Shown one piece after another: positions 8,943 through 64,000 of a DNA stretch of 64,000 nucleotides. The first letter of the stretch is position 1. Each line of letters begins with the position of its first letter. The DNA is taken from the NCBI GenBank assembly GCA_913052445.1, contig CAJXDP010000001.1:123791-187790 (forward strand). The letters run 5' to 3'. Below the pieces are notes generated by a model, which worked only from the letters and a program-made list of their open reading frames with translations, ran no database searches and was not told where the DNA came from. A program made the position numbers and the translations under genes. Source of the DNA: an uncultured Formosa sp. Lineage in GTDB: Bacteria; Bacteroidota; Bacteroidia; Flavobacteriales; Flavobacteriaceae.

Positions 8943-9854
8943 CTAATATTCTGTTATTGATTTTTGCCCTTTTTTCAGTTTAGGAAGATTCATATAATCC
9001 CCAATGATTTTATTATATTCATCAGGGATAAAATCTTTTCTTCCATCAGATGGATAAAAAGTCATTTCACCAAAAATACTTTTTCCTTTAATGGAATAAA
9101 AATCTACTCTCACGAAGGGTAATTTATCACTTAATATTTCAGATAATCTCTTCATTTCTGAAAGATTAGAAGGTTTTTTAATTTCATTTGTAATGCTTTT
9201 TTCTATTGTGACATAGCGAAAAGGCAAAGGTTTGAAGTTTAAGTCAAAAAAACCTCTTTTATGATGGTCGGCTCTGTCAAGGTGAACTTCTAAAAACTTA
9301 GCCACGCCATCGAAGCAATAAAACTTATAGTCTATAAGAGATGAGCTATGATCTTCTTTTAAATACTTTTCTGCTATTAAGCGAGGTTTTACATCTTTGT
9401 AAGCCCATTCTTGACCGGTTCTATAAAATTGATTCGTGCCCAGCCACTTTTTAAATAGCTTAAAGGTAGTATTTGTATTCAACTTATTTTTATCCGTTAC
9501 AATTAAATTATGTCCACTAGAGTGGGTAGCTTTAATCACAAATTGATTTGGTAAATCTTTAAAAGATACTTCTTCTGGTGTGTCATATACTCCAAAAATT
9601 TCATTTAAATATTCAACACCAATTTTTTCTTCAACATAATCTCTGACTGCGAATTTGTCAACTAATTTATTTATAATTTTGGGATGATAAAAGACTTTAT
9701 ACCACTGGATCTTTTCATTAAATTCTTCAGGTTTATATAAATTAAGCCTTTTCCCTGTATAATGTTCATAAAGAAAATGAGCATACAATTTCGGAGGTAA
9801 ATATTTTATTTTTCTAAGAAACCTTAAGCAGAGTTTTCGTAATTTATTACCCAT
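8943..9854 (-). CDS. TupA-like ATP-grasp protein (polysaccharide biosynthesis)
   Basis: 'LYEHYTGKRLNLYKPEEFNEKIQWYKVFYHPKIINKLVDKFAVRDYVEEKIG', 'FVIKATHSSGHNLIV', 'FGEMTFYPSDG'. Confidence 0.85.
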   Translation of the reverse strand: MGNKLRKLCLRFLRKIKYLPPKLYAHFLYEHYTGKRLNLYKPEEFNEKIQWYKVFYHPKIINKLVDKFAVRDYVEEKIGVEYLNEIFGVYDTPEEVSFKDLPNQFVIKATHSSGHNLIVTDKNKLNTNTTFKLFKKWLGTNQFYRTGQEWAYKDVKPRLIAEKYLKEDHSSSLIDYKFYCFDGVAKFLEVHLDRADHHKRGFFDLNFKPLPFRYVTIEKSITNEIKKPSNLSEMKRLSEILSDKLPFVRVDFYSIKGKSIFGEMTFYPSDGRKDFIPDEYNKIIGDYMNLPKLKKGQKSITEY

Positions 9855-9899
9855 ATAAATGAAGGTTTTGTTGAATACAGGTGGTAGCTTTAAAATGGA

Positions 9900-10715
9900 C
9901 TATACTGCTACATTATGTGTTCTCAATGCATCGTTTAACGATGTTTTTTTATTAGTACTTTCTTTTCGTTTTCCAATAATTAGTGCACAAGGCACGTTAA
10001 ATGAACCAGAAGGAAATTCTTTAGCATAACTACCAGGAATAACGACTGAACGTGCAGGTACAATGCCTTTAAACTCTTTTGGTTCTTCTCCAGTAATATC
10101 AATTATTTTTGTACTCATTGTTAGAATAACCCCTGCGCCTAATACTGCTTCAGTCTCGACACGAACACCTTCAACTACTATACAGCGAGAGCCTATAAAA
10201 GCATTATCTTCAATAACAACAGGAGCTGCTTGCAATGGTTCTAAAACACCTCCAATTCCAACTCCTCCAGAAAGGTGAACATTTTTTCCAATTTGAGCAC
10301 AACTTCCTACTGTTGCCCAAGTGTCCACCATAGTTCCTTCATCTACATATGCTCCGATATTAACATAGCTAGGCATTAAAATGGTACCTTTTGAAATGTA
10401 GGCACCATGGCGCGCTACTGCTTGAGGAACAACTCGAACACCTTTTTCGGCATATCCTTTTTTTAAAGGGATTTTATCATGAAATTCAAAAGGACCAACC
10501 TCAATTGATTTCATAGTTTGAATTGGAAAGTACATCACCACTGCTTTTTTAATCCATTCATTAACTTTCCATCCTTTGGGTGTTGGTTCTGCAACTCGGA
10601 GCTCACCTTTGTCTAATAAATCTATTATTGATCGAATCGCCTTTTTTGTTATATTTTCCTGCAGAAGAGTTCTGTCATCCCATGCAGATTCAATAAGTGT
10701 TCTCAAATTAGTCAT
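9900..10715 (-). CDS. dapD: 2,3,4,5-tetrahydropyridine-2,6-dicarboxylate N-succinyltransferase
   Basis: 271 aa left-handed beta-helix acyltransferase; 'GTMVDTWATVGSCAQIGKNVHLSGGVGIGGVLEPLQAAPVVIEDNAFIGSR'. Confidence 0.97.
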   Translation of the reverse strand: MTNLRTLIESAWDDRTLLQENITKKAIRSIIDLLDKGELRVAEPTPKGWKVNEWIKKAVVMYFPIQTMKSIEVGPFEFHDKIPLKKGYAEKGVRVVPQAVARHGAYISKGTILMPSYVNIGAYVDEGTMVDTWATVGSCAQIGKNVHLSGGVGIGGVLEPLQAAPVVIEDNAFIGSRCIVVEGVRVETEAVLGAGVILTMSTKIIDITGEEPKEFKGIVPARSVVIPGSYAKEFPSGSFNVPCALIIGKRKESTNKKTSLNDALRTHNVAV

Positions 10716-55769: not shown

Positions 55770-58754
55770 TTATAGTTGATTAAAATCCATAGAATCACAG
55801 TGAAGTAACTGCTTATCTTTTTTCTTAATTGGCTGTGTTTTCATGCCTTTATTTTTTTCTTTTAACATCATTTCTATGAGTATATTTCTCTCTGACTGAA
55901 TAGAAGTTCTGATTTCTTTATCCCGTTCACTATCAAAATATGTCACGCCTTCTATTAGTGTTTTTTCAGCTTTCGCATAAATTGATAATGGGTGATGACT
56001 CCACAGAACAAGATCGGCATCTTTTCCCACCTTAATACTTCCCACACGATTGTCGATATGAAGTAGTTTTGCAGGGTTAAGCGTGACCATTTTCCAAGCG
56101 TCTTGTTCAGAAGTACCGCCATATTTTACGGCCTTTGCAGCTTCTTGGTTAAGACGTCTAGACATTTCGGCATCGTCACTATTGATAGCGGTTACAACAC
56201 CCATAGCGTTTAATATTGATGCATTGTAAGGAATTGCATCATTTACTTCGAATTTATAGGCCCACCAATCGCTAAAAGTAGAAGCACCAACTCCGTGAGC
56301 TTTCATCTTATCAGCTACTTTGTAGCCCTCTAAAATATGTGTGAATGTATTGATGTTGAAATTAAATCTTTCAGCGACTTTCATAAGCATATTAATTTCG
56401 CTTTGTATGTAGGAGTGACAACTAATAAAACGTTCTTTATTAAGAATTTGAGTAAGAACTTCCATTTCAACATCCTTTCGGTATGGTTTTCCGCTTTTTT
56501 GTTTTGCATCATATGCTTTTGCTCTTGTAAAATAATCAATATAAAGTTGTTCAACTCCCATTCGTGTTTGTGGAAATCTACTGAAGCTGCCCCAATTAGA
56601 TTGTTTTACGTTTTCTCCCAAAGCAAACTTTATAAACTTAGGACTATCATAATAAATCAATTCTTTAGCCGAAGCCCCCCATTTTAACTTAATAATAGCT
56701 GAGCGACCTCCGATTGGATTGGCAGAGCCATGTAATATTTGAATTGTGGTGACGCCGCCTGCTAAGTTTCGATAAATATCAATGTCATCAGCATCAATTA
56801 CATCTTCAATACTTACTTCCGCTGAAGAATTTTGACCTCCTTCATTAATACTAGCAGCCGCTATGTGCGAATGTTCATCTACAATTCCAGTTGTTAAATG
56901 TTTTCCGGTAGCATCGATTATCACTGCTTTTTTACTCTTAAGATTCTTTCCGATTTTTGTAATTCGACCATTTTGAACTAATACATCTGTAGCCTCTAGA
57001 ATGCCTTCGGATTCATTTGTCCAAACCGTTGCATTTTTAAATAAGATGACCTTTGCCTCTGGAAGTTTTGAAAACCCATATGCACCATTTGGATAACTAA
57101 CAGGGACTATGACAGGAAAATGAAGCTCATTTTTCTTCTTCTTCTTCTCTGGCTTTGATGTTGTGGTCGTGTCTACTACTTTTTTCAGTTCTACACTAGC
57201 TGTAGATCCATCCATTAATATTACTTTTCCTTTTATTAATCCTGTAGCTGATATAATCTTAGCATTCAATCTTATAAATTCTTGACTCGTAGTGTCTTTA
57301 GATGATAACATTAAATGCATCCAATCATTCTTATAATTTAAATTACTGCTTAATTTCAATGAATCTGATGTCACTTCGGACTTAAGTTTAGTTAATGTAC
57401 CACTGATTTTTAGTTTGTAGGAGTCTTTATTAATTGTAAAATGGTAGTCACCTCTAAGGTCTGTTTTAGAAAGAGGGGTAATGATAGTTCTTGAACCATT
57501 AACCCAATTTTCATAAAGGGTTGTTTCAGCTTCAAATATATCTCCTGAAGTAATTAAAAAATTTGCATAGCTATCAATATTTAAATTACCAAGTTTTGGA
57601 TTTCCTAAAATTTTCGAAGGCTGTGAGGTTAAGGCTTCCAGAGCAGTGACCTTGTCCAATCCATACTCAATGGATTTTAATAGGTTAGTTTTAAAGTCTT
57701 TCATAGATTTCAATCCCTTCGTTGTAAATGCAAAAGATACTCCGGATAGATCTAAAGCTCCGGGATTTCCAGGGCGTTGGTTCCATTCTTTCATAGCTTC
57801 CAACTCCAATGAATTTGTTAAAAAAGAATCTTCAACATTATAAGCTTTTGGAAAATTTAAAGGGAGGATAAACGTTGCTTGTGTATTTATGATATCGTTG
57901 ATGCGTTCGTACTCATCACCACCACCCAAAATAACATACTGAACTCCAAAGGCGTCTCCTACGACATCAGCTCTAAGGGCATTTGCTCTACTACCAGCCT
58001 CAAAAATCTGTACCTTATTTTTGTTTTCATTAAAGGCTTCTATAGAACGGTCTTTGGTTGGAATATTTCCTTTTTTATACCAATCTGAATCATGATTAAG
58101 TTGTCTTAATAAAGCCATTGCCCCCATAATAGAAGATGGATATGATTGTTGAGAAAGCACACTTTTTGAAAAGGATGTGTACTGTGCCGACTGGTCAGAC
58201 AGGATGCGCTGTGAATCAGACCCTTTTGAATCTAAAGCAATTAAGGCACCTGTTCCACGTACAATTCCATCTTGAATGTGGGTGTTCACCACGCCAAAAC
58301 CTGCTTCTAATAAGCTTTTAGCAGTTTTGTCATCATATTTAAACTGGTCGATTGCATTTTGTTCCGGACGTACATGGTCATTCCAGTAAAAACCTTCTCG
58401 ACTTGCCATATATTGAGCGGAGCGGGAGCCACCATTTTTACGTTTGGTTTTTGCAATTCCAAAATCAGAATAAATATCTACAAAAGAAGGGTATATAGAT
58501 TTTCCTTTTAAATCAATTATTACGGAATTCTGCGGTAGTTTAACTTCTGCTCCAACTTGAATTACACGACCTTCTTGAATTAGTAAAACTCCATTTTCAA
58601 TCTGATTTGTAGGGGTAATGAAAATTTTAGCATTAATAAAAGCTGTGAAGTTTGTATTTTTTGATTTTACACCATCGTTTTTTGGAAAATAGTCTTGTGC
58701 AGAGAGTGATAGTAAACCAAAAAAACTCCAAAATAACAGAACATTTTTATACAT
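55770..58754 (-). CDS. Two-domain amidohydrolase family protein, secreted
   Basis: 994 aa; N-half 'SIYPSFVDIYSDFG' (no HxH), C-half 'TTGIVDEHSHIAAASINEGG' (HxH present) and 'VGSIKVGKDADLVLWSHHPLSIY'; halves separated by a Lys-rich linker. Confidence 0.92.
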   Translation of the reverse strand: MYKNVLLFWSFFGLLSLSAQDYFPKNDGVKSKNTNFTAFINAKIFITPTNQIENGVLLIQEGRVIQVGAEVKLPQNSVIIDLKGKSIYPSFVDIYSDFGIAKTKRKNGGSRSAQYMASREGFYWNDHVRPEQNAIDQFKYDDKTAKSLLEAGFGVVNTHIQDGIVRGTGALIALDSKGSDSQRILSDQSAQYTSFSKSVLSQQSYPSSIMGAMALLRQLNHDSDWYKKGNIPTKDRSIEAFNENKNKVQIFEAGSRANALRADVVGDAFGVQYVILGGGDEYERINDIINTQATFILPLNFPKAYNVEDSFLTNSLELEAMKEWNQRPGNPGALDLSGVSFAFTTKGLKSMKDFKTNLLKSIEYGLDKVTALEALTSQPSKILGNPKLGNLNIDSYANFLITSGDIFEAETTLYENWVNGSRTIITPLSKTDLRGDYHFTINKDSYKLKISGTLTKLKSEVTSDSLKLSSNLNYKNDWMHLMLSSKDTTSQEFIRLNAKIISATGLIKGKVILMDGSTASVELKKVVDTTTTSKPEKKKKKNELHFPVIVPVSYPNGAYGFSKLPEAKVILFKNATVWTNESEGILEATDVLVQNGRITKIGKNLKSKKAVIIDATGKHLTTGIVDEHSHIAAASINEGGQNSSAEVSIEDVIDADDIDIYRNLAGGVTTIQILHGSANPIGGRSAIIKLKWGASAKELIYYDSPKFIKFALGENVKQSNWGSFSRFPQTRMGVEQLYIDYFTRAKAYDAKQKSGKPYRKDVEMEVLTQILNKERFISCHSYIQSEINMLMKVAERFNFNINTFTHILEGYKVADKMKAHGVGASTFSDWWAYKFEVNDAIPYNASILNAMGVVTAINSDDAEMSRRLNQEAAKAVKYGGTSEQDAWKMVTLNPAKLLHIDNRVGSIKVGKDADLVLWSHHPLSIYAKAEKTLIEGVTYFDSERDKEIRTSIQSERNILIEMMLKEKNKGMKTQPIKKKDKQLLHCDSMDFNQL

Positions 58755-58845
58755 AGTTAATTGATTTTAATTAGTCATTAAATTTAATTATAAACTTTTA
58801 CAGCAAAACTATAATTTTTAAAATCTTATTAAATGTTATCAGACC

Positions 58846-59214
58846 TTAGTTTTGGTTAGCTTTAGGATCTTTTCCATATTCGTTTTCTTTCTCTTCTCCT
58901 TTAGAGACTGCAAGAATAAAACTGTACACTGGAATTAGTATAAACCAACCGCTTTTTCCTACGTCATGCATTCTTCTCATACCAACTGCTAATGACGGAA
59001 GTATTATGACTAACGAATATAGATCAGCCAAATCAGGAAATCCTGTAATCCCACAGATAACACCCCATATAATAGCAATAATTAGGTTGAATAGTTGAAA
59101 CATCCAATATTCTTTCCTTCTTGCTCTGCCACTAAATGTAGCATACTCTTTCATTACTTTTAAATAGTATTTCATAATGTTTTTATTATTTAGATTTATT
59201 AAATACAAAAACAT
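58846..59214 (-). CDS. DUF805 domain-containing membrane protein
   Basis: 'KYYLKVMKEYATFSGRARRKEYWMFQLFNLI', 'LPSLAVGMRRMHDVGKSGWFILIPVY'. Confidence 0.95.
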   Translation of the reverse strand: MFLYLINLNNKNIMKYYLKVMKEYATFSGRARRKEYWMFQLFNLIIAIIWGVICGITGFPDLADLYSLVIILPSLAVGMRRMHDVGKSGWFILIPVYSFILAVSKGEEKENEYGKDPKANQN

Positions 59215-59236
59215 TAGTCTCTAAACACAATTAATA

Positions 59237-60358
59237 TCAAATTCCAGATTTTATTATTTTAATTATTTCATTTTTAATTCTTAAGTAATATATACCCTCA
59301 GGAAATTGAGATAAGTCAATTTGTTTGTTTTCTCCCTTTAGAGTTCCCTTAACTAATAGTTGTCCTAAGGCAGATATAAGTTCGTAATTAACATCTTCAT
59401 TTTCTTTAATGTTAAGTAAAGTGTTTGTTGGATTTGGATAAGCTTTAATAGAAATATTTATCGTATTTGATCCAAGTAGATCACATTCAAAGCTATCTTC
59501 AACTTTCGAAGCTTCAGCAGGGTTTTCCAATAGATCTCCCTTTATCAATGCGCAATAACATTCATCTTTATCCACATATAGTTTGAGCCATGAAAGAGCT
59601 AACTTTCCAACTATTCCGTTTCCTCCATTTGGTGAGTTAGCGACTGAGTGATTTCCATTTACGATTTCAAATAGCAGTTTATTTGTAGTCTCTGGAGTAG
59701 AATTATAATGAATGTCAGAGTGTAACTCAGGTGGTGCTATAGGATCATTTTCACCACTAAAAATTAACAAGGAACTTTCGTGATTTAGATTAATATTTAA
59801 TAGATAAGGGCATAAGGCTATAACTCCAGATATTCTGTCATCTAGGACTGCAGCTCTCTGAGCACCGCCACCCCCCATCGACCATCCGCTAACAGCTAAT
59901 TTATTTAAATCAAGGTTGCCTTCAAGCGGTGAGCTAATCCTACTGTTTTCCTGTCTTATAGTCTCTAATGCATCTAATAAAGCATAGGCTCTAGCTTCAG
60001 GAAAATCATACACACTGTTAGTACCTATGATAATCGTTACAATTCCATGTGAGGCATAGAATGGACCCCATTCTTCAACACTTGATGGATATGCCGTAAA
60101 GCCAGGGACAATTGCAATACTTGCAAATGGTGGGCTGGCATTTATAGGGTAATAGATAGTGGCTCCAAAATAGTCTGGCCCATTACGAATTCCGTCAGAT
60201 TCACTTAGTGTTTGCACCTCAAATGGTCCGGGATCAGTTAAGCTTTCAATTGAAACTTCGCCACATTGTGCAAATACAACGCACGTGTATGGCGTTGAAA
60301 TGAGTATGACTAAACACGCTACTAGTATTTTTTTTAACTTTCTGACGTCTTTATAAAT
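59237..60358 (-). CDS. PETase/cutinase-like polyester hydrolase, alpha/beta hydrolase with C-terminal T9SS sorting domain
   Basis: '[51 protein letters not shown]', '[17 protein letters not shown]' (GWSMGGGG at 59864-59887), '[13 protein letters not shown]', '[32 protein letters not shown]'; tail '[11 protein letters not shown]...[19 protein letters not shown]' is a type A T9SS sorting domain. Extended upstream of the track GTG (60217) to include a signal peptide; proposed ATT start at 60356-60358. Confidence 0.88.
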   Translation of the reverse strand: [373 protein letters not shown]

Positions 60359-60389
60359 TACTTTTAATTATTTTTAATTTGGAATTAGC

Positions 60390-61364
60390 TTATTTTGTAC
60401 AATCAGCTGGAATACTTTCTTCTGCCATAAAATCCGCACATGTATTACAAATTAAGCTTTTGAAGAAACATGCAACCCTGTTAATTCTAAAGTCAATGTC
60501 ACTTTTAGACCTATAAATATCATGACCCCCATTAGGGACAATAGTTAAGTCGTTACATATTCCAGCTTCAGTAAGAATTTTATGAATTGGTCTTGACCCC
60601 AAACCTGTCATTATATTTTTTCCAATAGGAACTGTCGTGTCGAGGTCCCCATGGAATGAAATAGTAGGAATTAAATCTCCTGAACTAAAAACAACAGGTG
60701 GGATTGCACCCATGAAATTGTAAATGCCTTTAATGGTAAAAATTTCATTTAGACTATTATCAGAAGATTGTAAGGGGCCCAATTCTGATTCAAATAGAGG
60801 GACTATTTGATTCCATTCTCCCTGACTCGCATAGCTAGTTGATAATGAGGTGATCGCGCCAGCGCTAGAACCTCCAATAAAAATCCATGAAGTATCAATT
60901 TTCAGTTTTTCTATTTGAGTAGCAATATAACTGAGCGCTGAATTAGCATCTTGCTGCGCCCTGTAAGCTGCTTTTTGAACCCCACCAAAATCTTCACTAT
61001 CATAACCTAGGCGATAGCTTATTGTGGCCACTACAAACCCTCTTTTAGATAGCTCTACAGAGTGATAGGTCATTCTTTGTCTGTTCCCGCCTGTAAAACC
61101 ACCTCCGTGAATAAGAAGTATAAAGGGGCGCTTTTCTGCAATATCTATATCAGTATTTGGAAAATATATATCCATTTTCAAGTTTTGTGAGTATCCTCTG
61201 TAATCAGTGGCCTCTCCGTAGGTGATATTTTTAAGAGAATCAATTTGGTTATTTGAAAAATATTCATCGTTTGTAAAACGTAGTTCCGGAGTGCATATTT
61301 GTGCTGAGGCGTATTGAATAGTCAGTAATACGTATGAAATGTATAATAGCTTATTGTAATTCAT
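60390..61364 (-). CDS. Secreted alpha/beta hydrolase, carboxylesterase type
   Basis: Signal peptide MNYNKLLYISYVLLTIQYASAQ; oxyanion motif 'LLIHGGGFTGGNRQ', nucleophile elbow 'FIGGSSAGAI', 'ISFHGDLDTTVPIG', 'PNGGHDIY'. Confidence 0.9.
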   Translation of the reverse strand: MNYNKLLYISYVLLTIQYASAQICTPELRFTNDEYFSNNQIDSLKNITYGEATDYRGYSQNLKMDIYFPNTDIDIAEKRPFILLIHGGGFTGGNRQRMTYHSVELSKRGFVVATISYRLGYDSEDFGGVQKAAYRAQQDANSALSYIATQIEKLKIDTSWIFIGGSSAGAITSLSTSYASQGEWNQIVPLFESELGPLQSSDNSLNEIFTIKGIYNFMGAIPPVVFSSGDLIPTISFHGDLDTTVPIGKNIMTGLGSRPIHKILTEAGICNDLTIVPNGGHDIYRSKSDIDFRINRVACFFKSLICNTCADFMAEESIPADCTK

Positions 61365-61410
61365 GTAATTTATTTTTTTGATAATTTAATATTAATCTAA
61401 GATATTAATT

Positions 61411-62478
61411 TTATAAATTATTTTGCTGTAAATAACCTACTAATAATGCCACATAATAATTATAACTTTCAATTCCCTTTTTTTGATTGTTAGCTATTAG
61501 AAAACTGCTATAAACTCTTTTAATAAGTGGTTCTAATGGGTTATTGTAAGCCTTCCAAAACTCTGAAGTTTCTTTAAATTTCTTTAAGATTCCAGGGTGT
61601 ATTAATCCTACTGTATTATTATAACAATCGATGTCTCTTCGACTTAATTCAATTAAACAATATCGTAATGCAAACGCATAACCTGCATATTTATAATAAA
61701 GGTCATTATTGTGAATACAGGCTAGAAATCCAATAAAATTTGCTTCATTTTCTGCAGCGTAGCCCAATTGGTGGGCTTGTTCATGTGCAATCGTTGTTAT
61801 CATGCTTGATTTTGGCATGATACTGTTAACTTGTGCTTCTAGAGTAAATGGATTGAGATAGCCGCCAAAGCCCATATAGGTCAAAGGCGTGCTAAATAGT
61901 GACTTTTTAGTATTTTTTCCTGGATGAATAAAATTAGGATACTCACTTTCTAGTTGTCTAAATCCCTGTTGACTTAGAATAACCATTTCATTAAACGAAT
62001 AAGGGGTATCGATTTTTTGAAACGAATCATTGGCAATACTTAAGTGCAGGCTATTAGTTTTTGATACAAGCTTACTCGTGATTATTTTTAGTTCCTTTGT
62101 TGTGTAAGTTGTTTTAAGATTCAAAGTTACATGTAAAGAGTCGCGGTAGTAATTAAGCCCCCAACAAAAGTGAAATAAGAAATATACAACGGATAATGAT
62201 GTTAAAATATCCAATACAAAAACTTTAGGCTGAGTTCTAACGCGCTTCCAGTTCATGATAATCCACTTAGTCATGTAAATGATTGCTGCTATGTACAACA
62301 AATCCCCTAACGATACAGGACTCCATTTGAAAGAAGTATTTAACAGCTTTGAAATAATAGGGTAGAGCCCTTTACTATAATACTGCTCCACAAAACCGGA
62401 GTTATTTTTTAATAAAAATAACCCAATGTACTGGAATAAAAGACTTAAAGTAATTAGGTATTTTAGTTTTTTAGTCAC
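61411..62478 (-). CDS. DUF3810 domain-containing membrane protein with HExxH-type motif
   Basis: 'MITTIAHEQAHQLGYAAENEANFIGFLAC', 'YSKGLYPIISKLLN', 'GYLNPFTLEAQVN'. GTG at 62476-62478 preferred; the track start at 62715 overlaps pepD antisense. Confidence 0.88.
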   Translation of the reverse strand: MTKKLKYLITLSLLFQYIGLFLLKNNSGFVEQYYSKGLYPIISKLLNTSFKWSPVSLGDLLYIAAIIYMTKWIIMNWKRVRTQPKVFVLDILTSLSVVYFLFHFCWGLNYYRDSLHVTLNLKTTYTTKELKIITSKLVSKTNSLHLSIANDSFQKIDTPYSFNEMVILSQQGFRQLESEYPNFIHPGKNTKKSLFSTPLTYMGFGGYLNPFTLEAQVNSIMPKSSMITTIAHEQAHQLGYAAENEANFIGFLACIHNNDLYYKYAGYAFALRYCLIELSRRDIDCYNNTVGLIHPGILKKFKETSEFWKAYNNPLEPLIKRVYSSFLIANNQKKGIESYNYYVALLVGYLQQNNL

Positions 62479-62521
62479 TCTCAAATGTAATAATTTTAAT
62501 TTATGAATGGGAAGTAATACG

Positions 62522-62529
62522 TACCTTTG
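62522..62529 (+). promoter_or_regulatory. -7-like box TACCTTTG upstream of pepD
   Basis: TAnnTTTG match 13 nt before ATG 62543. Confidence 0.45.
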
Positions 62530-62542
62530 TACAATAAAAAAC

Positions 62543-64000
62543 ATGTCTATTATGAGTACAGAAATACGCCAGTTAGAACCCAGAGAGGTTTGGAATAAGT
62601 TTGCCGATTTAAATGCAGTTCCTCGTCCTTCTAAAAAAGAAGAACGCGTGATCGCTTTTATGAAAGATTTTGGAGCGTCCTTAAGTTTGGAGGTAATTGA
62701 AGATTCAGTAGGCAATGTGATTATTAAGAAACCGGCTACAGTTGGGATGGAAGACCGTAAGCCGATTGTAATGCAATCACATTTGGATATGGTACATCAA
62801 AAAAACAACGATACTAATTTTGATTTCCTGACTCAAGGAATTGAGATGCATGTTGTAGGCGACTGGGTAAAAGCTAATGGAACAACATTAGGAGCTGATA
62901 ATGGTTTGGGCGTTGCTACTATTATGGCAGTGTTAGAAAGTAATGATATTTCGCATCCATCTATCGAAGCCTTGTTTACAATAGACGAAGAGACAGGAAT
63001 GACAGGAGCTATGGGGCTTAAAGGTGGGCTTTTAAACGGAGCTATTTTATTAAACCTAGACACTGAAGAAGACAATGAAATTGGAGTTGGTTGTGCTGGA
63101 GGTATAGATGTTACAGCTAAAAGAGATTACAATGAAGAATCTACTCCGGAAACTAAAATTGGATATAAAATTGAAGTTAATGGACTTCAAGGTGGGCATT
63201 CAGGAATGGATATTCATAAAGGGCTTGGAAATGCCAATAAGATAATGAATCGGATACTTTTTGATGGTTTTGAAAACTACGGATTGCGAATAACTGAGAT
63301 TGACGGGGGAAGTCTTAGAAATGCCATTCCTAGAGAAAGTTTTGCTGTTGTTGCAATTGATGTTGTTCATGAAGTTGATTTCTTATACAATGTTGGAGAA
63401 TTCATTAGATCCATACAAACAGAACTCAAATCCATAGAGCCATACTTAGCGATTAGTTTGACCAAGGTAGATACTCCAGAGTTGATTATGGATTTAGGCG
63501 TTCAAGAGGGGCTTACGCGTGCACTTTATGCTGCATGGAATGGTGTTTATAAAATGAGTCCTGATATTGAAGGCTTGGTAGAAACATCAAATAATATAGC
63601 GCGTGTAGTTGTAAAAGATGGTCATATTAAAATTGGTTGTCTAACAAGGTCTTCTGTAGAGTCTACAAAAAAAGATTTAGCTTTGACTTTAAGATCGACT
63701 TTTGAATTAACAGGTTGCGAGGTTACAATGTCTGGTGATTATCCAGGTTGGGCTCCGGATATGGATTCTTCAATATTAAAAGTATTGACAGGTTTATACG
63801 AAACAATGTATAGTGAAAAGCCGCATGTAGCAGCTTGTCATGCTGGCTTAGAATGTGGTATTTTAGGAACTAATTATCCAGAGATGGAGATGATTAGTTT
63901 TGGACCTAATATAAAGGGAGCACATTCGCCAGATGAACGAGTACAAATATCGTCCGTTAATAAATTCTGGAGGTTTCTGTTAGAGATTTTAAAAAATATC
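62543..64000 (+). CDS. pepD: Aminoacyl-histidine dipeptidase / beta-Ala-His dipeptidase (truncated by the window end)
   Basis: Open frame from ATG 62543 (MSIMSTEIRQLEPREVWNKFADLNAVPRPSKKEERVIAFMKDFG) with 'KPIVMQSHLDMVHQKN', 'GTTLGADNGLGVATIMAVLE', 'FTIDEETGMTGA', 'HAGLECGIL'. Not in the track because it has no stop in the window. Confidence 0.95.
   Translation, partial: MSIMSTEIRQLEPREVWNKFADLNAVPRPSKKEERVIAFMKDFGASLSLEVIEDSVGNVIIKKPATVGMEDRKPIVMQSHLDMVHQKNNDTNFDFLTQGIEMHVVGDWVKANGTTLGADNGLGVATIMAVLESNDISHPSIEALFTIDEETGMTGAMGLKGGLLNGAILLNLDTEEDNEIGVGCAGGIDVTAKRDYNEESTPETKIGYKIEVNGLQGGHSGMDIHKGLGNANKIMNRILFDGFENYGLRITEIDGGSLRNAIPRESFAVVAIDVVHEVDFLYNVGEFIRSIQTELKSIEPYLAISLTKVDTPELIMDLGVQEGLTRALYAAWNGVYKMSPDIEGLVETSNNIARVVVKDGHIKIGCLTRSSVESTKKDLALTLRSTFELTGCEVTMSGDYPGWAPDMDSSILKVLTGLYETMYSEKPHVAACHAGLECGILGTNYPEMEMISFGPNIKGAHSPDERVQISSVNKFWRFLLEILKNI

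Follow-up and report, generated by a model that had tools for sequence, protein, structure and literature searches.

Four soluble Bacteroidota enzymes, PET27, PET28 and PET29 from Aequorivita and PET30 from Kaistella jeonii, have been termed promiscuous esterases and all cleave pNP esters, tributyrin, Impranil, PCL and BHET (PMC8767016 Table 1). Among these four tested enzymes only PET27 and PET30 attack PET film, PET28 and PET29 being without PET activity (PMC8767016). PET30, whose structure is PDB entry 7PZJ, carries Gly195 and Val232 in place of the cysteine pair beside the active site, and its mutants F80Y and Y178W have lost activity on BHET and PET (PMC8767016), indicating that the motif to which these residues belong is by itself no predictor of PET activity. 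Other described polyesterases include IsPETase of Ideonella sakaiensis, with a Tyr-Met-Trp motif and a Cys203-Cys239 disulfide, and the Type III PETases HaloPETase1 and R75estA, which possess a GHSQG motif and Thr at the clamp position (PMC13396203).

The window, i.e. the whole stretch of 64,000 nucleotides that was analysed, encodes what is very probably a PET30-orthologous exported serine polyesterase, for which a scheme of export, substrate and translation start is proposed below. In an otherwise ordinary relative of PET30 from a marine bacterium with a small genome, the less ordinary features are a cassette formed with a second esterase and the absence of a canonical start codon, both shared by four species.

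Relation to PET30 and other described polyesterases

The polyesterase is matched in Pfam by the PETase family (PF12740, E=1.6e-54) and by Por_Secre_tail (PF18962, E=7e-12), its tail is also recognised by the NCBIfam model TIGR04183 (E=9e-12), and its top PDB sequence match is 7pzj (E=2e-147), which covers the full length from signal peptide through tail; these E-values rule out a chance match. A sequence-only reading of this DNA had proposed a PETase-like polyester hydrolase that a marine-type flavobacterium exports by T9SS. This proposal agrees with the profile matches, the orthologues and their tree, the fold match and the T9SS genes of the genome. The translation and coordinates it gave are correct, while the gene lies on the minus strand (Table 1).

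Table 1. Features of the polyesterase locus, in window coordinates; residues follow P0001 numbering
Feature	Position	Strand	Basis or remark
PET30-type polyesterase gene	59237..60358	-	373 codons from ATT at 60358, plus stop
Sec signal peptide	60269..60358	-	assumes start at ATT 60358
Phe87, at IsPETase Tyr87 position	60098..60100	-	alignment
Catalytic Ser160 in GWSMG	59879..59881	-	invariant
Tyr185, at IsPETase Trp185 position	59804..59806	-	alignment; W/Y/F across orthologues
Catalytic Asp205	59744..59746	-	invariant
Catalytic His237	59648..59650	-	invariant
Type A T9SS C-terminal sorting domain, residues 307-370	59249..59440	-	PF18962, TIGR04183
Partner esterase, BD-FAE-like alpha/beta hydrolase with signal peptide, no T9SS tail	60390..61364	-	PF20434, 4e-19
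DUF805 gene, between polyesterase and amidohydrolase	58846..59214	-	PF05656; absent here in G015 and G016
Conserved flank: DUF3810 gene	61411..62715	-	profile match and genus comparison
Conserved flank: amidohydrolase gene	55770..58754	-	genus comparison

Structure prediction, which had been proposed as a check, favours the same assignment: with an AlphaFold model of moderate confidence (pLDDT 65.5) as query, the top PDB entry is 7PZJ (catalytic-domain identity 74%), and IsPETase and cutinases follow at 33-39% identity. Over the full length, the protein is 59% identical to PET30. Named genera with orthologues at 60-70% identity include Ulvibacter, Aequorivita, Psychroflexus, Patiriisocius, Polaribacter and Marinirhabdus; the loci L008, L019 and L013 belong to the organisms that yielded PET27, PET28 and PET29, respectively. 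A strong match was found in 15 of the 398 genomes sampled from the family. In the phylogenetic tree the four copies from the window's genus form one clade (support 100/99) nested in a set with PET30 (97/91). The sequence-only reading had compared the Phe of the oxyanion hole with Aequorivita and Kaistella enzymes; the protein falls with PET30 rather than PET27.

Alignment bears out the conserved Ser160/Asp205/His237 triad, which is invariant across the distinct homologues aligned, as well as Phe at the Tyr87 position of IsPETase and Tyr at that of Trp185 (in CPYL), all of which had been read by eye. The absence of the active-site disulfide was likewise recognised correctly, including Val239 for Cys239; the counterpart of Cys203, on the other hand, is Gly202 and not Ser, owing to a slip of one alignment column. 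Gly202/Val239 is the same pair as Gly195/Val232 of PET30, and the cysteines of the PET30 C-terminal disulfide (C262-C285) are retained as C269 and C292, as read from the sequence. The type A T9SS tail that had been placed after the catalytic domain is supported by both profiles.

Taken together, the protein possesses an alpha/beta hydrolase domain of the PETase family that both sequence and tree show to be orthologous to the PET27/PET30 group, the Ser-Asp-His triad with a Phe-Met-(Trp/Tyr) motif, cysteines for the C-terminal disulfide only and none beside the active site, and an N-terminal signal peptide along with a type A T9SS tail. Its assignment as a new member of this group and as an ortholog of the crystallised and characterised PET30 is therefore well supported, and would extend the published PET30 group into the window's genus. 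With PET30 it shares signal peptide, PETase domain, Phe-Met-Tyr motif, T9SS tail and length, as well as the Gly/Val replacement and the C-terminal cysteines; it differs in genus, in its probably non-canonical start and in its second-esterase cassette. PET27, PET28 and PET29 have the same architecture and are 61-66% identical to it, but their motif has Trp in place of Tyr, their start is ATG and no partner-esterase homologue lies within 5 kb of them.

IsPETase shares the fold, the triad and the equivalents of Trp159 and Met161, although identity is only 33-38%, and the window enzyme, with Gly202/Val239 in place of the second disulfide, Phe-Met-Tyr instead of Tyr-Met-Trp and a T9SS tail, does not conform to the IsPETase type (type IIb). 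Judged by sequence, it is far closer to the published Bacteroidota enzymes than to IsPETase. Type III PETases are also alpha/beta hydrolase polyesterases with Tyr at the Trp185 position, but the GWSMG motif and Phe87 of the window enzyme set it apart from them (PMC13396203). Within the genus the Trp185 position is occupied by Tyr in the window copy, Trp in G016, Phe in G015 and Tyr in G017, and the G015 copy has His at the Trp159 position, a cutinase-like Trp-to-His change; these four naturally varied orthologues may be useful to probe how this fold attacks PET.

In another genus, a tandem of PETase-family genes (L111/L114, G177 C35:27830-30229) encodes proteins 44-45% identical to the window protein, in which the motif residues are altered. 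No relatives were found in the viral contigs searched, and a defence library search gave no matches.

Absence of a canonical start codon

Each of the 27 distinct homologues read from other genera has a canonical start ahead of its signal peptide. The four genus copies have TTA, TTA, TCA or TTT at the expected position, and none of them has an in-frame ATG, GTG or TTG upstream of it. In the window copy the open frame runs from stop to stop over 376 codons (59240-60367), and its first ATG/GTG/TTG, at codon 50, already falls within the mature protein, this delay being the longest among 48 long frames in the window. The signal peptide, called by eye and by alignment, requires a non-canonical start; its AQC does not vary among 22 orthologues. 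An assembly error was rejected as the cause because the feature is shared by four separate genomes, and a concealed upstream ATG was rejected for the window, as none is present in the spacer of ~30 bp after the esterase stop.

Candidate starts are offered by an upstream in-frame ATT, present in all four copies and in the same column in three of them (the nearest ATT of the window species being four codons further upstream), and by the ATA of KKI (60326-60328, I), common to all four. In the three sister species, an ATG, GTG or TTG that could serve instead also lies inside the signal peptide; initiation there would remove the positively charged n-region. Across the four species, dN/dS of the catalytic domain is about 0.07-0.12 with dS around 1, and the signal peptide comprises 24 gap-free codons with pS above pN. 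Such strong purifying selection despite the absent canonical start makes it likely that translation in the four species begins at ATT (at 60358 in the window) or at the ATA of KKI. A comparable situation is seen in infC of three congeners (G013, G015 and G010; L121-L123, about 1437-1470), in which no ATG, GTG or TTG precedes the conserved N-terminus and the expected beginning reads ATA GCA ATA CGT, so that infC in this genus probably starts at ATA; a search of the window's own genome, 81% complete, found no infC.

Decay of the gene into a pseudogene, with loss of its start in this genus, would also account for a window copy devoid of a canonical start before codon 50. This explanation is highly improbable, since the frames are intact in four species at that level of synonymous divergence and constraint, the length of the signal peptide has been kept under the same bias towards synonymous change, and infC of the same genus equally lacks ATG/GTG/TTG at its expected start. 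Under the preferred reading of a functional gene initiated at ATT or ATA, gene finders would cut the window protein within its mature domain and overlook its export.

The two-esterase cassette and its chromosomal site

The gene directly upstream of the polyesterase encodes the partner esterase, for which the predicted model has a pLDDT of 52. Both genes are present in four of 18 congeneric genomes (G000, G015, G016 and G017), the partner esterase of G017 being interrupted by a contig end, and neither was found in the remaining 14, although the flanking DUF3810 gene is present in every one of these. The pairing was not detected within 5 kb in 18 named relatives from other genera, and G170 has a 48% homologue of the partner esterase and no polyesterase match.

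The position of the cassette is fixed between the DUF3810 gene and the conserved amidohydrolase gene. This site contains only 145 bp in G013; in G010 it is occupied by a sigma factor and a TonB receptor, in G003 by a YefM-YoeB pair. Such differing contents indicate a variable site. The interval 58755-61410 of the window corresponds to this genus-wide variable site, whose cargo, depending on the species, comprises a histidine kinase, acidic lipoprotein-like repeat proteins, YefM-YoeB, a sigma/FecR/TonB receptor set or nothing. Between G015 and G016 (L091 about 9600-10080 versus L092), a tract of ~480 bp spanning the T9SS tail of the polyesterase, the spacer and the start of the amidohydrolase is ~97% identical, compared to ~77% elsewhere, which would reflect either recent recombination or a binning artefact.

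From a wider perspective, a small-genome marine flavobacterial subclade may carry a two-esterase polyester/lipid-ester cassette at a variable site, with the polyesterase deprived of its canonical start and translated from AUU or AUA, as infC appears to be, a tentative reading that is somewhat less likely than not. If true, the AUU/AUA start would keep expression of the polyesterase low and could couple it to the levels of initiation factor IF3.

Proposed export, expected activity and alternative roles

The host genome encodes SprA, the PorU sortase and 26 T9SS tails. It is proposed that the polyesterase crosses the inner membrane by the Sec route, after which, as suggested by its own tail together with SprA and PorU, T9SS would bind the C-terminal domain, export the enzyme and remove the tail. 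Outside the cell, homology suggests that Ser160-His237-Asp205 would cut polyester or long-chain ester bonds via an acyl-enzyme, and the adjacent esterase, which would rely on Sec alone for its export, would probably complete the breakdown of short soluble products. As natural substrate, an aliphatic polyester of natural origin or a lipid-like ester from algal biomass is most likely. By analogy with the characterised relatives, activity on PCL and BHET is to be expected with good confidence; activity on PET film is predicted to be weak and is itself somewhat doubtful. The sequence-only reading was apt in leaving PET activity open, considering that two of four tested relatives attack PET film.

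A true plastic degrader that lives on PET and uses the neighbouring esterase as its MHETase might be envisaged in view of the two PET30-group enzymes that attack PET film (PMC8767016), the second esterase in the same cassette and its weak match to the MHETase PDB entry 9pjb (E=8e-5). Nevertheless, the partner is BD-FAE-like and has no tannase/MHETase-family match in Pfam, no match to the Rieske dioxygenase for terephthalate (PF00848) was found in the 81% complete host genome, and the sole intradiol dioxygenase match in the host is a secreted protein with a T9SS tail. With such a partner and no PF00848 match in that genome, the locus does not present the PETase-MHETase two-enzyme system. Furthermore, orthologues are spread across many genera with deep divergence, so that the family presumably predates plastic, and a life on PET is very improbable. 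An enzyme acting mainly as a triglyceride or wax ester lipase, PETase-like in structure only and cleaving polyesters as a side activity, is less remote, as the PDB title of 7PZJ is 'Lipase' and the promiscuous PET27-30 esterases cleave tributyrin (PMC8767016); it is still unlikely, given that the PETase/cutinase family domain has a complete binding motif and that PCL and BHET are also cleaved by all four tested relatives. An exported polyesterase of the PET30 type is thus the preferred reading.

The intradiol match in the host is itself of some interest: at L120 (G000 contig C21:13070-13846) an intradiol ring-cleavage dioxygenase domain (PF00775) is combined with a T9SS tail, an arrangement that suggests an exported ring-cleaving enzyme.
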